From assembly GCA_029256085.1 (NCBI GenBank), contig JAQSYP010000001.1, positions 62,001 through 126,000 on the forward strand: a stretch of 64,000 bases of DNA. The letters are read 5' to 3'. The position numbers and the translations under genes were made by a program. The notes under the pieces were generated by a model. That model saw only the letters and a program-made list of their open reading frames with translations, had not been told where the DNA came from and ran no database searches. This document shows positions 1 to 9,223 of this stretch, in pieces. The stretch comes from Caryophanales bacterium. Its GTDB lineage: Bacteria > Bacillota > Bacilli > CAJFEE01. Each line of letters begins with the position of its first letter. Position 1 is the stretch's first letter.

Positions 1-1262
1 CTATAAGTTGTATATGCAGAACCTACAAAACCAAGTGCTATAATTGCAAATTGTAATAATTGTACAGTTGATGTTGTTCCAAATGCTATATTACTTCTAT
101 CCATTTCTATTCCGATAAGAGAGAAGAAGTTCAGATAAATTGCTTTACCTTCCGTAATTAGATGGAAGAAGTTATGAGCTAAATGCCCAGCTAAGTCTAA
201 TGGTATTATTGCATAACCGAATTTTGTAAAATTGTTTATTACATCTTGTTTTGTACCCTTAAATGCAGCTAATTTTGCAGTACCAAGAAGTAAAATGATA
301 GGTATAATCATCGAAATAATGAATGCTACCGTAAAGTTAACGTTGTAGCTGTCAGTCATTGTAAATTTAGAAATGTATGCTAAAATGTCTTTCCAGACAG
401 TTAACATCGTAATGTTTTGTACAAATACGATACCCATGATTACTGCTGCTAATGATGCATGTTCTAACTTAGGCTTCTTTAAGAACCAAAGCTCTTTCGT
501 AGGTACTCTAGGTGTAATTACGATAGAATCATTAGGACAAGATTTCACACAGTTTGCACATAAGTTACAATCTGCACTGCTATCCATCGTTCTTACGTAA
601 ACGAACATTGGACAACCTTCAACTTTATCATTACCTTTGAAACAAGATTGACTCTTACACGTTCTACAAATTTCTGGAGTTCCTCTAAGTGATAATGCAC
701 CTGACCTAGAATAGTTTCCTGCTAGTCCACCTAAGAAACATAGTGTTTTACAGAATGCTCTTCTTTCATAGAAAACTGAAGTAGCTACAACCATTGTTAC
801 TAATATTAATAATAGATAACCAGACCCACGAGGTGATTCAATAATCCCAAAAATATGGTCAGACCAAGTTATTAGAATAAAGAATAAGTCAATTAACCAA
901 ATGCCGTATTTTTTAAGGAACTTAGGTAATGGTCTTTCACTACCAACTAGCTTTCGGACTATATCACTAAGCTTACCGAAAGGACATATTGCACACCAGA
1001 ATCTTCCTAAAAACAGGAATATAACTGGTATCATTGGCCACCAAAGTACCCACGTAGTAGAAGTACCGAAATTGCGACTAGGATTCATAGTTCCAGCTAC
1101 TAATTCGAATACAATTACTGAGAAAATTGCAAAGGCGATCCACTGAAAGATTCCAGGGTACCATCTACTTTTTAGAAATGCCTTAACAGGTCTATAATTT
1201 AGTAGGTTAAAAGGCTCTTTCGTTTCTACTTCTTCATTTTGCTTAGTTGCTAAGTTACTCAT
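1..1262 (-). CDS. NapH/NosR-like membrane 4Fe-4S protein (3' end beyond window)
   Basis: I translated this frame on the minus strand from the ATG at 1262-1260; it stays open to the left edge (about 420 codons), so the C-terminus is missing. The protein has several hydrophobic segments and polyferredoxin-type cysteine motifs: FWCAICPFG, FCKTLCFLGG, CRTCKSQSC followed by GCPMF, and CNLCANCVKSCPN. This is the pattern of the NapH/NosR/CcoG group, membrane proteins that pass electrons from the quinone pool to periplasmic or extracytoplasmic reductases. A late membrane segment carries three histidines (GHLAHNFFH), possible haem or metal ligands. I see no FMN-binding domain at the N-terminus, so it is closer to NapH/NosH than to full NosR. 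The start overlaps the stop of the upstream His-rich membrane protein gene by 8 bases, implying co-translation. The exact electron acceptor is not shown by the window. Confidence 0.85.
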   Translation of the reverse strand, partial: MSNLATKQNEEVETKEPFNLLNYRPVKAFLKSRWYPGIFQWIAFAIFSVIVFELVAGTMNPSRNFGTSTTWVLWWPMIPVIFLFLGRFWCAICPFGKLSDIVRKLVGSERPLPKFLKKYGIWLIDLFFILITWSDHIFGIIESPRGSGYLLLILVTMVVATSVFYERRAFCKTLCFLGGLAGNYSRSGALSLRGTPEICRTCKSQSCFKGNDKVEGCPMFVYVRTMDSSADCNLCANCVKSCPNDSIVITPRVPTKELWFLKKPKLEHASLAAVIMGIVFVQNITMLTVWKDILAYISKFTMTDSYNVNFTVAFIISMIIPIILLLGTAKLAAFKGTKQDVINNFTKFGYAIIPLDLAGHLAHNFFHLITEGKAIYLNFFSLIGIEMDRSNIAFGTTSTVQLLQFAIIALGFVGSAYTTY

Positions 1263-2492: not shown

Positions 2493-3368
2493 ATGCCAAT
2501 ACAAATTATTACAACAGTGATCGTTCTAGCATTCACGATCTATATAGCATATCTAACTTATGAGAATAAACGCAAAATAACGTGTATGACTGGTATGATG
2601 ATTGCTATGACTAACTCAATGATGTCGAGTACAGTATTAGGATTACAGTTAGGATATTACTTTTTACCTGACCTAGCTGTTCCGACAATGCTTGCAATAA
2701 TAGTTGGTATGGCTGCTGGATATTTCACAGGTAAACCTGTTTCACTAATGTCTGGATTAGACGGATTAATGGCAGGTATTATGGGTGGTATGATGGGTGC
2801 GATGGTAGGAGTAATGATCCAACCAGCACAAAAAAACATGTTTACCTTATTTATGCTCGTTATTTATCTAGTAACAATGCTGCTTCTAGTAAAAATGATG
2901 AAAGAAGAAGTTTTGGATGACGCACCAGCAAAAAAGCAAGCACCCCAAAAACAACAAGCTAGTAAAAATCAAATATTTACCTTTATTACTGTAGGTGTTG
3001 GAATTATTGCAATCGTAAGTATGTTTATGGCAGGGAATATGATGTTTGGTGGAAATTCATCAGCGAATGATCAAATTGAGCAACAAGTAGAACTTGTAAA
3101 TGGCGAACAAATCGCAACAGTTCAAGTTAATGGTTATGGATATGGTCCAGGAACAATTGAGGTACAGTCGGGTGTACCGACAAAGTTGAAGTTTGTTGTT
3201 GATGCAACTGCAGGATGTGCTAGACAAGTAGTTTCAGATGATTTAGGATTTTCAGAAATTCTTATGAATAATGAAGAAAAATTAGTTGACATCGGTACTT
3301 TACAACCAGGTACTTACCAATATCGCTGTGGTATGGGAATGTACTGGGGAACAATTGTAGTTAAATAA
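2493..3368 (+). CDS. Met-rich membrane protein with C-terminal cupredoxin domain
   Basis: The 291-residue product has about four membrane segments in its first ~135 residues. Two are extremely methionine-rich (MTGMMIAMTNSMMSS and MAGIMGGMMGAMVGVM). A Gln/Lys/Ala linker and another membrane anchor (~163-187) follow, then an extracytoplasmic cupredoxin-like domain (~205-291). This domain has a single Cys in TAGCARQV and a terminal CGMGMYW motif, the Cys/Met ligand set seen in plastocyanin-like proteins associated with copper ATPases (Cupredoxin_1/EfeO-type), with no obvious histidine ligand. I infer Cu(I) capture or relay across the membrane through Met and Cys thioethers and thiols. It starts at ATG 2493 behind AAGGAGAGAG and leads the lipoprotein–copA gene run. 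Its cupredoxin domain is clearly paralogous to the small protein at 8816-9223. Confidence 0.8.
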   Translation: MPIQIITTVIVLAFTIYIAYLTYENKRKITCMTGMMIAMTNSMMSSTVLGLQLGYYFLPDLAVPTMLAIIVGMAAGYFTGKPVSLMSGLDGLMAGIMGGMMGAMVGVMIQPAQKNMFTLFMLVIYLVTMLLLVKMMKEEVLDDAPAKKQAPQKQQASKNQIFTFITVGVGIIAIVSMFMAGNMMFGGNSSANDQIEQQVELVNGEQIATVQVNGYGYGPGTIEVQSGVPTKLKFVVDATAGCARQVVSDDLGFSEILMNNEEKLVDIGTLQPGTYQYRCGMGMYWGTIVVK

Positions 3369-3385: not shown

Positions 3386-4081
3386 ATGAGAAACTTTAAT
3401 AAACTAGGAATCACTTTAATGACTTTCGCATTATCAGCAACTTTAATTGCTTGTAACAACGATACAAAATCTTCTGAAGATAAAGGTAATAATGTTGAAA
3501 GTGCTACAACTGACTTTAAAAATATAGTTAATAAATATCCAAAGAAGATTGGTTTTCATAAAGAGTTAAATCATTGGGGTATTGAGCTTGATAAAGGTGA
3601 GAAATTCGAATGGACGAAAGATATGTCTTCAAACGCAGCTGATTTCGCTATAGTGACAAAAGCAGAACCGTTCATTAGTGCAGGACTTGATGTAAATAAG
3701 CTTGGTAATGGTTGGTTATTTAAAAAGGCTGAAGAAGATACGCCTGATTTATTGATACGACCATATGATGTTAGTGATAGAAATAAGTTTTCAAGTGGAT
3801 CGTCTGATGCAATGAGGGTTATTTTGAAATTTAAACCAGAAGTACTTACAAAGGATGATACCCACAATATAGTAACTCTTGGTGAAGGTTTTGAGGTGCG
3901 TTGGGCTGAAGAAATTGGAAAGACTAATGCAGACTTTATGTTTAGACTTAATTCAACTGAATTAGTAGAGGCAGGTTTAGATTTAGACAAGCTAGAAGGT
4001 ACTGATTGGAAGGTAATAAGTGAGCAAGTTAATGGCGAAACTATTAAAGTATTAGATAGAATGTATATGTTAGAAAAGTAA
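3386..4081 (+). CDS. Lipoprotein with internally duplicated domain
   Basis: The 231-residue protein starts with a signal peptide ending in the lipobox LIAC (Cys about residue 23), so it should be lipid-anchored outside the membrane. The mature part contains two similar halves. The first has GEKFEWTKDMSSNAADFAI followed by AGLDVNKLGNGWLF; the second has GEGFEVRWAEEIGKTNADF followed by AGLDLDKLEGTDWKV. I do not recognise the family. It lies 17 bases after the Met-rich cupredoxin protein and 36 before copA, with a good SD (GGGGGT), so it is probably part of the copper operon. It contains few Cys, His or Met, so a structural or sensing role is as likely as direct metal binding. Confidence 0.75.
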   Translation: MRNFNKLGITLMTFALSATLIACNNDTKSSEDKGNNVESATTDFKNIVNKYPKKIGFHKELNHWGIELDKGEKFEWTKDMSSNAADFAIVTKAEPFISAGLDVNKLGNGWLFKKAEEDTPDLLIRPYDVSDRNKFSSGSSDAMRVILKFKPEVLTKDDTHNIVTLGEGFEVRWAEEIGKTNADFMFRLNSTELVEAGLDLDKLEGTDWKVISEQVNGETIKVLDRMYMLEK

Positions 4082-4117: not shown

Positions 4118-6565
4118 GTGGAAACTAGAGAGTTTTTAGTTACCGGAATGACCTGTGCTGCATGCTCCCGAGCTGTAGAAAGGACAACAAAAAAATTAGA
4201 CGGTGTAATTGAAACTAATGTAAATTTAGCTACCGAAAAGCTTAACATATCGTTTGATCAAGAAAAGCTATCAGCTGAAGATATTAAAAATGCGGTAATT
4301 AAGGCTGGTTATGGTATTAAGGAAGCAGAGTTAGACAAAAAATCATATAAGATAGAAGGAATGACTTGTACAGCGTGTGCAAAAGCAGTTGAACGTGCTG
4401 TTAAAAAAGTAGATGGTGTAGAAGAGGCTAATGTTAACTTTGCTACAGAAACTTTAGCTATTTCATACGACAAATCTAAAGTAAGAAATTCTGATATTAA
4501 GGCTACTATTGAAAAAGCCGGATATAAGGCAATAGATGAAATTAATTCTACTGATGACCACCAAGCTGCTAAGGATCAAGAAATAAAGAGAATGTGGAAT
4601 CAATTTGTTATTTCAGCAATTTTCACAGTACCACTTCTAGTAATAGCGATGGGTCATATGATTGGCTATGATTTACCAACGTTTATTGATCCAATGGATA
4701 ACCCTATGACTTTTGGTCTTGTACAATTAGTTTTAATAATTCCGGTAGTAATTGCAGGTAGAAGATTCTATACTGTAGGATTTAGAACATTGTTTAAAGG
4801 TAGTCCTAATATGGATTCATTAATTGCTATAGGTACTGCAGCAGCTGTTCTTTATGGACTATTCGCTTTATATCAAATATCAATTGGAAATATAGATTAT
4901 GCATTTGAGCTGTATTTCGAATCAGCAGGTGTAATAATTACACTAATTTCACTTGGTAAATACTTAGAGAATGTTACTAAAGGTAAAACGTCAGAGGCAA
5001 TTAAAAAGCTAATGGGATTAGCACCGAAAACTGCTACAGTTGAGCGTGATGGAGTAGAAACAGTTATACAAATTGAAGATGTAATTGTCGGTGATATTAT
5101 AATTGTTAAGCCAGGTGAAAAAATACCAGTTGATGGCGAAGTTGTCGACGGGATAACAGCAATCGATGAATCTATGCTAACTGGAGAAAGTATACCAGTT
5201 GAAAAAAATGTGGGTAGTAAAGTAATAGGAGCTAGTATAAATAAAAATGGATCAATTAAATTCAAAGCTACTAAAGTAGGAAAAGATACTGCGTTAGCCC
5301 AAATTATTAAGTTAGTTGAAGATGCACAAGGTTCAAAAGCTCCAATAGCGAAAATGGCAGACATTATTTCTAGTTACTTTGTTCCAATCGTTATTAGTAT
5401 TGCAACTCTATCAGCATTATTCTGGTATTTCTATGATGGTTCATTTATTTTAGCATTAACTGTTTTCGTTTCTGTGCTTGTTATTGCTTGCCCATGTGCT
5501 TTAGGTCTTGCAACACCTACCTCAATTATGGTGGGCACTGGAAAAGGTGCAGAAAATGGTGTGTTAATTAAGAGTGGGGTTGCTTTAGAAACTACTCATA
5601 GAATACAAACAATTGTTTTTGATAAAACAGGTACAATTACTGAAGGTAAGCCTGTTGTAACTGATATATTAGTATTCGAAGGTTTAACTGAAGATGTACT
5701 AATGAAAGTTGCAGGATCAGCAGAGAAAAAGTCAGAGCATCCTCTAGGTGAAGCAATTGTAAGACGTGCTGAAGAAGATGGCATTGAATTTGTAAATGTT
5801 GACTCGTTCAAGGCAATACCAGGTCATGGCATTGAAGCGACTGTTGATGGTAACACCTATCTATTAGGAAATAAAAAACTAATGATAGAAAGTAATATAG
5901 CTTTAGAAAAGTATGAAGATAGCTCTCATAGACTTGCAGAAGAAGGAAAAACACCGATGTATGTTGCTACTGAAGGTAAATTAGTTGGTATTATCGCAGT
6001 GGCTGATCCTATTAAAGAAACTAGTCTTAGAGCTATTAAAAAGCTTCATGAAATGGGAATTGAAGTTGCAATGCTAACTGGTGATAACCAACGTACAGCT
6101 AATGCAATTGCAAAGCAAGTTGGTATTGATGTAGTTTTAGCAGAAGTTCTGCCACAAGATAAGGCAAACGAAGTTAAAAAATTACAGGATAAAGGTAGAA
6201 AAGTAGCAATGGTTGGAGATGGAATCAATGATGCTCCTGCATTAGCACAAGCTGATATTGGAATTGCAATTGGTTCGGGTACCGATGTTGCAATTGAGTC
6301 TGCAGACATTGTTTTAATGAGAAGTGACTTGATGGATGTGCCAACGGCGATTAAACTAAGTAAGAGTACCATTACAAATATTAAACAAAATTTATTCTGG
6401 GCATTTATTTACAACACGCTAGGAATTCCACTAGCAATGGGTGTATTATACTTCTTTGGTGGACCTCTATTAAACCCAATTTTTGCAGCTTTTGCAATGA
6501 GTTTAAGTTCAGTGTCAGTTTTATTAAATGCATTGAGATTAAAACAATTCAAACCGGTAAAATAA
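4118..6565 (+). CDS. copA: Copper-translocating P1B-type ATPase
   Basis: The 815-residue protein starts at GTG 4118 behind GGGAGGT. Two N-terminal heavy-metal domains carry GMTCAACS and GMTCTACA. The core shows the transmembrane CPC motif (C458-P-C460 in [12 protein letters not shown]), the actuator TGES, the phosphorylated D502 in DKTGT, the SEHP nucleotide-binding motif and GDGIND. Together these are diagnostic of Cu(I)-exporting P1B-1 ATPases. Length and domain order match Bacillus CopA. The usual CsoR and CopZ genes are not adjacent; instead, the ATPase sits with two cupredoxins, a lipoprotein and a two-component system. That suggests it supplies copper to extracytoplasmic proteins rather than serving only detoxification (inference). 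Confidence 0.95.
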
Positions 6566-6741: not shown

Positions 6742-7431
6742 ATGAGTAATTATAAAGTGCTAATAGTCGATGATGAAATGCAAATGCGTAACCTTATAGG
6801 TTTTTATTTAAAACAACAAAGTTTTGATGTAGTTGAGGCAACTGATGGAGTTGAAGCTATGAAAATTTTTCCGACTTCCAACTTTGATTTAGTCATATTA
6901 GATGTTATGATGCCGAATATGGACGGTTGGGAAGTTTGCCGAAAAATACGTGACATATCAAATGTTCCAATAATTATGCTGACAGCTAGAACTGATTTAT
7001 CAGATAAAGTTCATGGTTTTCAACAAGGTGCCGATGATTATTTAACTAAGCCATTCGAAATTGAAGAGTTATTGGTAAGGGTTAATGCCCTACTAAGAAG
7101 ATCAAAAAAAGAAGATAATAATGAGAAAGATAAAGCAATTTCAGTTAACGGCATGATAATAAATCCTATCTCTAGAAAACTATATATCAATAACGAGGAT
7201 ATAAATGTTACTAGAAAAGAATTTGATTTGTTGTATCTTTTAGTTTCAAATAGAAATAGAGTTTATGATAGAGAATTTTTGTTGCAAAATATTTGGGGCG
7301 ATGAGTTTTTTGGCGATGACCGCACGGTTGATCAACATGTGAAAAATATTAGAGAAAAGTTCAGGAAAAATGGTGCCTCTTTTAATCCAATTGAAACGGT
7401 ATGGGGTCTAGGTTATAAGTTTAAGGAGTAA
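6742..7431 (+). CDS. OmpR/PhoB-family response regulator
   Basis: This 229-residue protein has a receiver domain (residues ~5-115) with acidic pocket D10-D11, phosphoacceptor D54 in VILDVMMP and the conserved Lys in TKPF. A winged-helix DNA-binding domain (~135-228) ends in RTVDQHVKNIREKF and ETVWGLGYKF. The start ATG has SD AAGGAG. It precedes the sensor kinase by 3 bases and is followed by a cupredoxin and a rhodanese gene. By context it should respond to copper or redox stress at the membrane; the target genes are probably its own cluster, but I could not identify a repeated binding site. Confidence 0.9.
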   Translation: MSNYKVLIVDDEMQMRNLIGFYLKQQSFDVVEATDGVEAMKIFPTSNFDLVILDVMMPNMDGWEVCRKIRDISNVPIIMLTARTDLSDKVHGFQQGADDYLTKPFEIEELLVRVNALLRRSKKEDNNEKDKAISVNGMIINPISRKLYINNEDINVTRKEFDLLYLLVSNRNRVYDREFLLQNIWGDEFFGDDRTVDQHVKNIREKFRKNGASFNPIETVWGLGYKFKE

Positions 7432-8815: not shown

Positions 8816-9223
8816 ATGAAAAAGAAGTTTGATAACTTGATATTAATAACTTATTTATTGATAATCATCGTAATTGTCTATGGAGGAGCAACGTTTGGGA
8901 CAAAGTACTATAGAGAATTAATGAATCAACCTGGTGTTGTCATTAAAGATGGTGTTCAGATTGCTACAATTATTGTAAATGAAGTAGGGTACGAACCTCA
9001 AACTTTGGAACTTAAATCAAATATTCCGACAAAAATTAATTTTTATGCCGATGAGACTGCAACTTGTTCAAGACAAGTTACTTCTAAACAATTAGATTTT
9101 TTTAAGACTTTATATGTTAATAAATCCGAAGTAATTGATGTTGGCAAGTTAACTCCAGGAACTTATAAGTATCAATGTGGCATGGGAATGCATACTGGTG
9201 AATTAAAAGTAATTACTGAATAA
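8816..9223 (+). CDS. Membrane-anchored cupredoxin-like protein
   Basis: This 135-residue protein has one N-terminal membrane anchor (~9-28) and an extracytoplasmic cupredoxin fold (~48-135). The signature matches the C-terminal domain of the protein at 2493-3368: QIATIIVNEVGY, a Cys in TATCSRQV and a terminal CGMGMHTG. Here a histidine follows the Met pair, whereas the longer paralogue has Tyr-Trp. Predicted ligands are two Cys, Met and possibly His. It directly follows the kinase gene, so it may be an accessory copper binder for the sensor or a chaperone. The family is of the Cupredoxin_1/EfeO type by sequence pattern. Confidence 0.8.
   Translation: MKKKFDNLILITYLLIIIVIVYGGATFGTKYYRELMNQPGVVIKDGVQIATIIVNEVGYEPQTLELKSNIPTKINFYADETATCSRQVTSKQLDFFKTLYVNKSEVIDVGKLTPGTYKYQCGMGMHTGELKVITE

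Follow-up and report, generated by a model that had tools for sequence, protein, structure and literature searches.

The CTR1-type copper importers of eukaryotes carry methionine pairs spaced i/i+4 and glycine-spaced helices in the membrane, with three helices per chain and a trimeric pore. In bacteria, the inward crossing of copper through the inner membrane is described as less defined than its export, and the same source ties CtaG to the formation of the oxidase copper center and perhaps to copper import (PMC13344008). CupA of Streptococcus pneumoniae, for which C74, C111, M113, and M115 are given as the Cu(I) ligands (PMC5646241), acts, according to another account, as a chaperone that captures incoming copper and passes it to CopA for export (PMC7558416). 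CO dehydrogenase (CODH) is reported to need Cu(I) introduced at the cytoplasmic membrane (PMC4240915, PMC3471820), and the missing factors in the maturation of its Mo/Cu site have been named a future challenge (PMC4240915).

Here, we describe a gene from a 64,000-nucleotide stretch of DNA (the window) that joins a Met-rich membrane domain to a CupA-like cupredoxin (Table 1). An earlier note had read this arrangement as a thioether/thiol Cu(I) path built into one chain. Our analysis supports that reading in part: the methionines are conserved and the neighborhood is related to copper, but a cupredoxin devoid of histidine is by itself not new.

Table 1. Coordinates of the Met protein, its parts, and the surrounding genes in the window
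Feature	Position	Strand	Evidence or detail
Whole gene: Met-rich membrane domain and CupA-like cupredoxin	2493-3368	+	ORF of 291 aa
Met domain, residues 1-142, five predicted TM helices	2493-2918	+	AlphaFold2 pLDDT 96.9, pTM 0.90 (predicted alone)
Predicted TM helices of the Met domain, residues 2-24, 31-56, 62-80, 85-108, 111-141			
TM2, residues 31-56; M32, M35, M36, M39, M43 on one face; predicted cytoplasmic half	2583-2660	+	
TM4, residues 85-108; near-invariant M97, M100, M101, M104, M108; middle to outer half (predicted)	2745-2816	+	
Sixth helix, residues 156-185, tether of the cupredoxin	2958-3047	+	AlphaFold2 model
CupA-like cupredoxin, residues 193-291; expected Cu(I) ligands C242, C279, M281, M283	3069-3365	+	PF13473, CupA match
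Lipoprotein-like gene, family unassigned, next in the operon after a gap of 17 nt	3386-4081	+	No Pfam match
CopA-type Cu P1B-ATPase, two HMA domains	4118-6565	+	TIGR01511 639 bits, above cut-off; Pfam
OmpR-type response regulator	6742-7431	+	Profile matches
Sensor histidine kinase, His-containing extracytoplasmic segment	7435-8811	+	Profile matches
Second CupA-like cupredoxin, one TM anchor, ends CGMGMHTG	8816-9223	+	PF13473 E 2.4e-14; 4f2f E 4.4e-7
Divergent membrane protein, repetitive His/Asp/Ser-rich loop	1255-2277	-	No Pfam family
Fer4_5 4Fe-4S membrane protein, running off the window edge (L157:6890-8263)	1-1262	-	Fer4_5 domain

Results

A Met-rich chain that opens a copper-response operon

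The gene is directly preceded by an AGGAG-type ribosome site and opens a compact run that continues with the lipoprotein-like gene, CopA, the regulator, the kinase, and the second cupredoxin. Its product contains 28 methionines, three cysteines (positions 31, 242, and 279), and no histidine. Of the methionines, 21 fall within residues 1 to 142 (binomial p 3e-10, with an assumed background of 2.7%), and 7 of the 24 residues of TM4 are methionine. TM2 and TM4 are dense in this residue, and the earlier statement on Met-dense helices holds. The protein has the most Met-dense 100 residues among all open frames in the window. The second most Met-dense open frame is a shadow frame, not a gene, which arises from the repeats of the divergent membrane protein gene. 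Chance is better excluded by the conservation of the methionines (see below) than by composition.

Several of the surrounding genes have features of their own. The two halves of the lipoprotein-like protein are similar to each other (EFEWTKDMSSNAADFA and EVRWAEEIGKTNADFM), and clustering of the 104 loci placed its homologues exclusively in loci of its own genome. The extracytoplasmic segment of the kinase contains the His clusters EHEQHHG, NDNHHN, and SHHIEQ, possibly for metal sensing, and the loop of the divergent membrane protein consists of His/Asp/Ser/Glu repeats with HSDSEDGHSDSDSGHDDSSTKEEDG-like units that possibly bind metal. The Fer4_5 protein, encoded beside the copper operon, might provide the electrons with which Cu(II) is reduced; in locus L042, a relative lies two genes upstream of the gene for the Met protein. 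The second cupredoxin matches the structures of both CupA and the CopA N-terminal domain, and it looks single-anchored.

The cupredoxin is of the CupA type

Residues 202 to 290 matched PF13473 (Cupredoxin_1) with an E-value of 3e-15 and 56.5 bits, as compared to a curated cut-off of 27. The nearest solved relatives were pneumococcal CupA (4f2e, phmmer E 1.8e-8) and the N-terminal domain of pneumococcal CopA. Foldseek gave an E-value of 4.5e-8 against the CupA type, and CupA headed the list of superpositions of the AlphaFold2 model (Z 16.0, rmsd 1.7, 95 residues). In the sequence alignment, C74, C111, M113, and M115 of CupA align with C242, C279, M281, and M283, and neither protein has a His ligand. 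Thus, judged by its sequence, the cupredoxin is homologous to CupA and has all four candidate Cu(I) ligand residues. The CGMGMYW ending without a His ligand, which the earlier note had pointed out, is indeed present, and the proposed Cu(I) type of such a Cys/Met domain gains support from its homology to a proven Cu(I) binder with the four ligands kept. The same match makes the His-less Cu(I) cupredoxin a case with precedent rather than a novelty.

The two proteins differ in their attachment to the membrane, as CupA has one anchor, whereas six helices come before the cupredoxin in the window protein. They may also differ in orientation: a cytoplasmic-side location goes with the CupA type, and positive-inside counts suggest that the domain of the window protein lies outside. 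The new part is the membrane domain, the cupredoxin being of an already known kind.

The Met domain is a five-helix bundle in the predicted model

The model of the whole protein had a mean pLDDT of 90.1. TM4 carries its five near-invariant methionines in the motif GxMGGMMGAMxGxM, and the methionines of TM2 and of TM4 each cluster on one face of an ideal helix wheel (mean resultant 0.83 for both). The number of K and R residues per loop was 2.73 for loop 1, 0.29 for loop 2, and 0.37 for loop 4, which predicts that the N terminus and the cupredoxin are outside and that TM2 and TM4 start inside. With this topology, the TM2 methionines would lie in the inner half of the membrane and those of TM4 in its middle to outer half. 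The two sets together could span the membrane.

Comparisons with known families gave little. Residues 1 to 142 had no Pfam match at an E-value of 0.001, and NCBIfam gave no consistent match over the Met domain. For the 69 members of alignment A1, of whose 54 Pfam families 25 were listed, scattered weak matches were all that lay outside the cupredoxin in this listing; those to TauE, Thia_YuaJ, Bax1-I, and others, each in a single member, were judged to be chance since they remained weak and varied from member to member. A profile search of PDB sequences returned three rows (best E 0.98), none of them convincing, and Foldseek with the Met-domain model found nothing at E<=0.001 (best E 1.9). The best VIA-align hit, NosY of NosDFYL (Z 6.8), is within the noise expected of helical bundles, and no copper channel was among the chains listed. 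The absence of a structural match does not prove a new fold. No published account of the domain was found in PMC titles and the opening parts of abstracts, a coverage outside of which most subscription papers fall.

Like the CTR1-type importers, the Met domain combines i/i+4 methionine pairs with glycine-spaced membrane helices; it has five helices in the monomer model, in contrast to the three of CTR. Homology to CTR1 was rejected, as PF04145 did not match at the locus in a search of its own genome with E-values up to 10. The profile matched a single place in this genome, on another contig, with 12.6 bits against a cut-off of 25.3.

The helix methionines are conserved

The wider homologue search had used Met motifs, so that methionine conservation in the larger set is partly built in. 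For this reason, we separately counted 15 homologues found by a whole-protein search without Met motifs, which constitute the fair set. M97, M101, and M104 were present in all 15, and M39, M43, M100, and M108 in 14. M35 was kept in 12, M32 in 8, and M36 in 7, while the methionines of TM5 (121, 129, 135, and 136), which serve as an internal control, were found in 2 to 4 of the 15. In a 69-row alignment, G91, M97, G102, M104, and M108 were invariant, and the near-invariant methionines reappeared in a 52-row alignment. The earlier note had staked its reading on the methionines being kept in orthologues, and they are kept both in the motif-independent homologues and in the larger alignments.

Distribution and repeated joining to cupredoxins

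An N-terminal query matched 97 ORFs in 104 loci (L001 to L104), which were reduced to 95 by removal of identical ones; A1 was built from 68 loci of the related set with less than 90% identity. With the A2 profile, the Met domain was detected in 116 of 398 Bacilli genomes, which represent 66 of 145 genera, some of the E-values being marginal. In a phylum-wide draw of 398 genomes, 9 had a match and about five of these matches convince; four partial matches with E-values from 1e-5 to 8e-4 were discounted. Copies were also present in metagenome-assembled genomes (MAGs) of DPANN archaea (L044, L047, L093, and L098) and of Casimicrobiaceae (L103), and these could be binning errors. In one of the former, from an Aenigmarchaeota MAG, small Met-rich ORFs (MMGNNANSMMQMGQM) adjoin the archaeal Met-domain gene (L044:1497-2109). 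A further copy (L170), annotated as hypothetical, is carried by the Stenotrophomonas rhizophila plasmid CP031730.1 and was possibly transferred between phyla. Its gene order of regulator, DsbD_2, and Met protein is the same as in Lysinibacillus (L038), and its neighbors include CopC, CopD, DsbA/B, and CcdA.

A cupredoxin is fused to the Met domain in 47 of the 95 unique homologues, a count that leaves out two stand-alone ORFs with mis-called starts (L053 and L022). The fused domains comprise 29 of the CupA type, 15 of a His type with CTIPGHKESGM-like ends, and 3 degenerate ones. The first cysteine is present in all 29 CupA-type fusions, and one of them (L030) has leucine in place of the last methionine. 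Apart from the two mis-started ORFs, the remaining 46 Met domains stand alone without a cupredoxin. The union of both halves in one chain, claimed earlier, is thus real, and in two split versions (L054 and L059) the cupredoxin is encoded by the next gene. That the Met domain was combined more than once with copper domains of two different kinds speaks for a part of its own in copper handling, and for the protein as a whole we consider such a role very probable.

Copper genes in the neighborhood

Copper families were found within 6 kb of the gene in 37 of the 68 nonredundant loci and in 1 of 20 control stretches (Fisher p 6e-5), a comparison that is partly circular because the families were in part chosen for recurring near these genes. 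The neighbors included CopA-like ATPases (23 loci; the CopA query can also match other P1B ATPases), CsoR (10), CopC/CopD (8), multicopper oxidase (6), DUF326 (5), DUF1775 (YcnI; 4), and others, and in 30 of the 68 loci none of the tested families was nearby. Among the adjacent genes, exporters such as these ATPases are as frequent as uptake genes. Regulators that combine DeoR and NosL (YcnK-like) adjoin the gene in L042, L048, and L049, and in L038/L039 and the plasmid copy L170 they are two genes upstream of it; in a scan without L039, NosL was above its cut-off exclusively in L038, L042, and L170.

A link to form I CO dehydrogenase in one lineage

The gene for the Met protein (metP) sits in a form I CODH cluster in both Brevibacillus thermoruber (L030) and Brevibacillus sp. 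SYP-B805 (L076). L030 matched TIGR02416 with 1242 bits, and both loci encode AYRCSFR, which we take to be the mark of form I CODH. Form I CODH was above its cut-off in 22 of the 398 Bacilli genomes, and the Met domain is present in 10 of the 22 as well. In three genera of Brevibacillaceae (G470, G622, and G675, of which G470 and G675 are the two Brevibacillus genomes above, so that metP has three CODH-operon cases in all), the order is M-S-L-F-G-D-E-metP, with metP after coxE. Because the three genomes are related, this arrangement may reflect one event. CODH was present in 4 of the 39 genomes of this family: the three with metP and a fourth with Caa3_CtaG (PF09678) after coxE. CtaG also occupies this slot in a genome of another Bacilli family (G407), the CtaG genes of the two families lying directly 3' of coxE at L175:11168-12028 and L189:3605-4393. 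Of the 22 CODH loci, three (L177, L181, and L192) had no coxE in the gene calls; in the other 19, the slot after coxE held metP in 3, CtaG in 2, and neither in 14, and thus the CODH link is lineage-limited. No account of the Brevibacillus CODH was found in PMC titles and abstract beginnings, among which most subscription papers are not covered.

Two membrane proteins that are unrelated to each other but both linked to copper thus occupy the slot after coxE. Caa3_CtaG resembles the Met protein in being a copper-linked membrane protein that takes the same position in two CODH operons, and CopC/CopD (YcnJ-type) proteins resemble it in their link to copper and in the nearness of their genes to some of its homologues. 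Both differ from the Met domain in size and motifs, and both were absent from the Pfam listing, which gave 25 of 54 families.

Discussion

Judging from the sequence, the Met helices probably ligate Cu(I) directly, and a Cu(I) path across the membrane through these helices is, on balance, slightly favored. The explanation that we consider best, with a little more than even confidence, is that an outer Cu(I) cupredoxin works together with a relay of thioethers through the membrane. At the outer face, the CupA-type cupredoxin would bind Cu(I) with two cysteines and two methionines. It would be coupled to the five-helix Met domain, in which TM2 and TM4 would form a thioether ladder across the membrane, and this ladder would let Cu(I) move between the outer and the cytoplasmic sides of the membrane. 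As the ancestral role, inward copper supply would be favored because the domain or its fusion is found in operons of the cytoplasmic Mo-Cu CODH and beside ycnK/ycnJ uptake-type genes; the need of CODH for Cu(I) at the cytoplasmic membrane leans the same way. Nevertheless, inward as the main direction is tentative and falls somewhat short of an even chance. In the window, where the gene belongs to an operon with CopA and a two-component copper response, the protein may act at the outer face as a Cu(I) buffer or take Cu(I) back up there.

Several observations argue against this explanation: exporters are as frequent among the adjacent genes as uptake genes, 30 of the 68 loci have no tested copper family nearby, and the CODH link is limited to one lineage. 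A further one is the second paralogue in the same genome (L156:7318-8280, contig 1), which keeps the Met helices but has a degenerate cupredoxin that has lost the first cysteine and the Met ligands and ends in CSICTKSG. The overlap of this paralogue with a CopZ-like HMA gene speaks in favor of the explanation.

The protein could alternatively act as a sink on the export side, taking up Cu(I) released by CopA at the outer face and storing it or passing it on, with Met helices that bind copper without conducting it. The operon shared with CopA, the two-component system, and a second cupredoxin would fit such a role, as would the CopA-like ATPases near 23 of 68 homologues and the predicted outside location of the cupredoxin. 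A surface sink would, however, need less than near-invariant methionines deep in two helices and in opposite leaflets; moreover, Met domains without a cupredoxin are common (46 of 95), and the position in CODH operons points to a cytoplasmic client. We consider a sink unlikely. Less likely still is an assembly factor, that is, a metallochaperone that, like Caa3_CtaG or CopD, gives Cu(I) to membrane or membrane-bound cuproenzymes and is not a transporter. The equal operon slot of CtaG in two CODH loci and the recurrence of YtkA, CopC/CopD, and YcnI-type genes nearby speak for it; the window operon, however, contains copper-response genes alone and no cuproenzyme, and the Pfam listing for the 69 members (25 of 54 families) contains neither CtaG nor CopD. 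A role of the Met domain as a sensor of copper, in the membrane or at the outer face, on behalf of the adjacent histidine kinase is very improbable: kinase and regulator share its gene run and two-component genes occur in 22 of the 104 loci (cluster 1), but most copies have no such system nearby and the same listing of 25 of 54 families shows no signaling domain.

Returning to the relay, it is conceivable, though we think it rather doubtful, that the Met domain represents a widespread and so far unrecognized family of prokaryotic Cu(I) conduits in Bacilli, some Pseudomonadota, and DPANN archaea. Recurrently joined to varied extracytoplasmic cupredoxins, such conduits would import copper and, in some CO oxidizers, would supply the Mo-Cu CODH in place of CtaG. 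The domain is compact and conserved, its five helices are strongly predicted, and it has invariant residues and a Cu(I)-type partner domain, so that both questions, the inward crossing of copper and the maturation of CODH, can be tested with a few point mutants. The possible task of the protein, transport of copper across the cell membrane, is poorly understood in bacteria.
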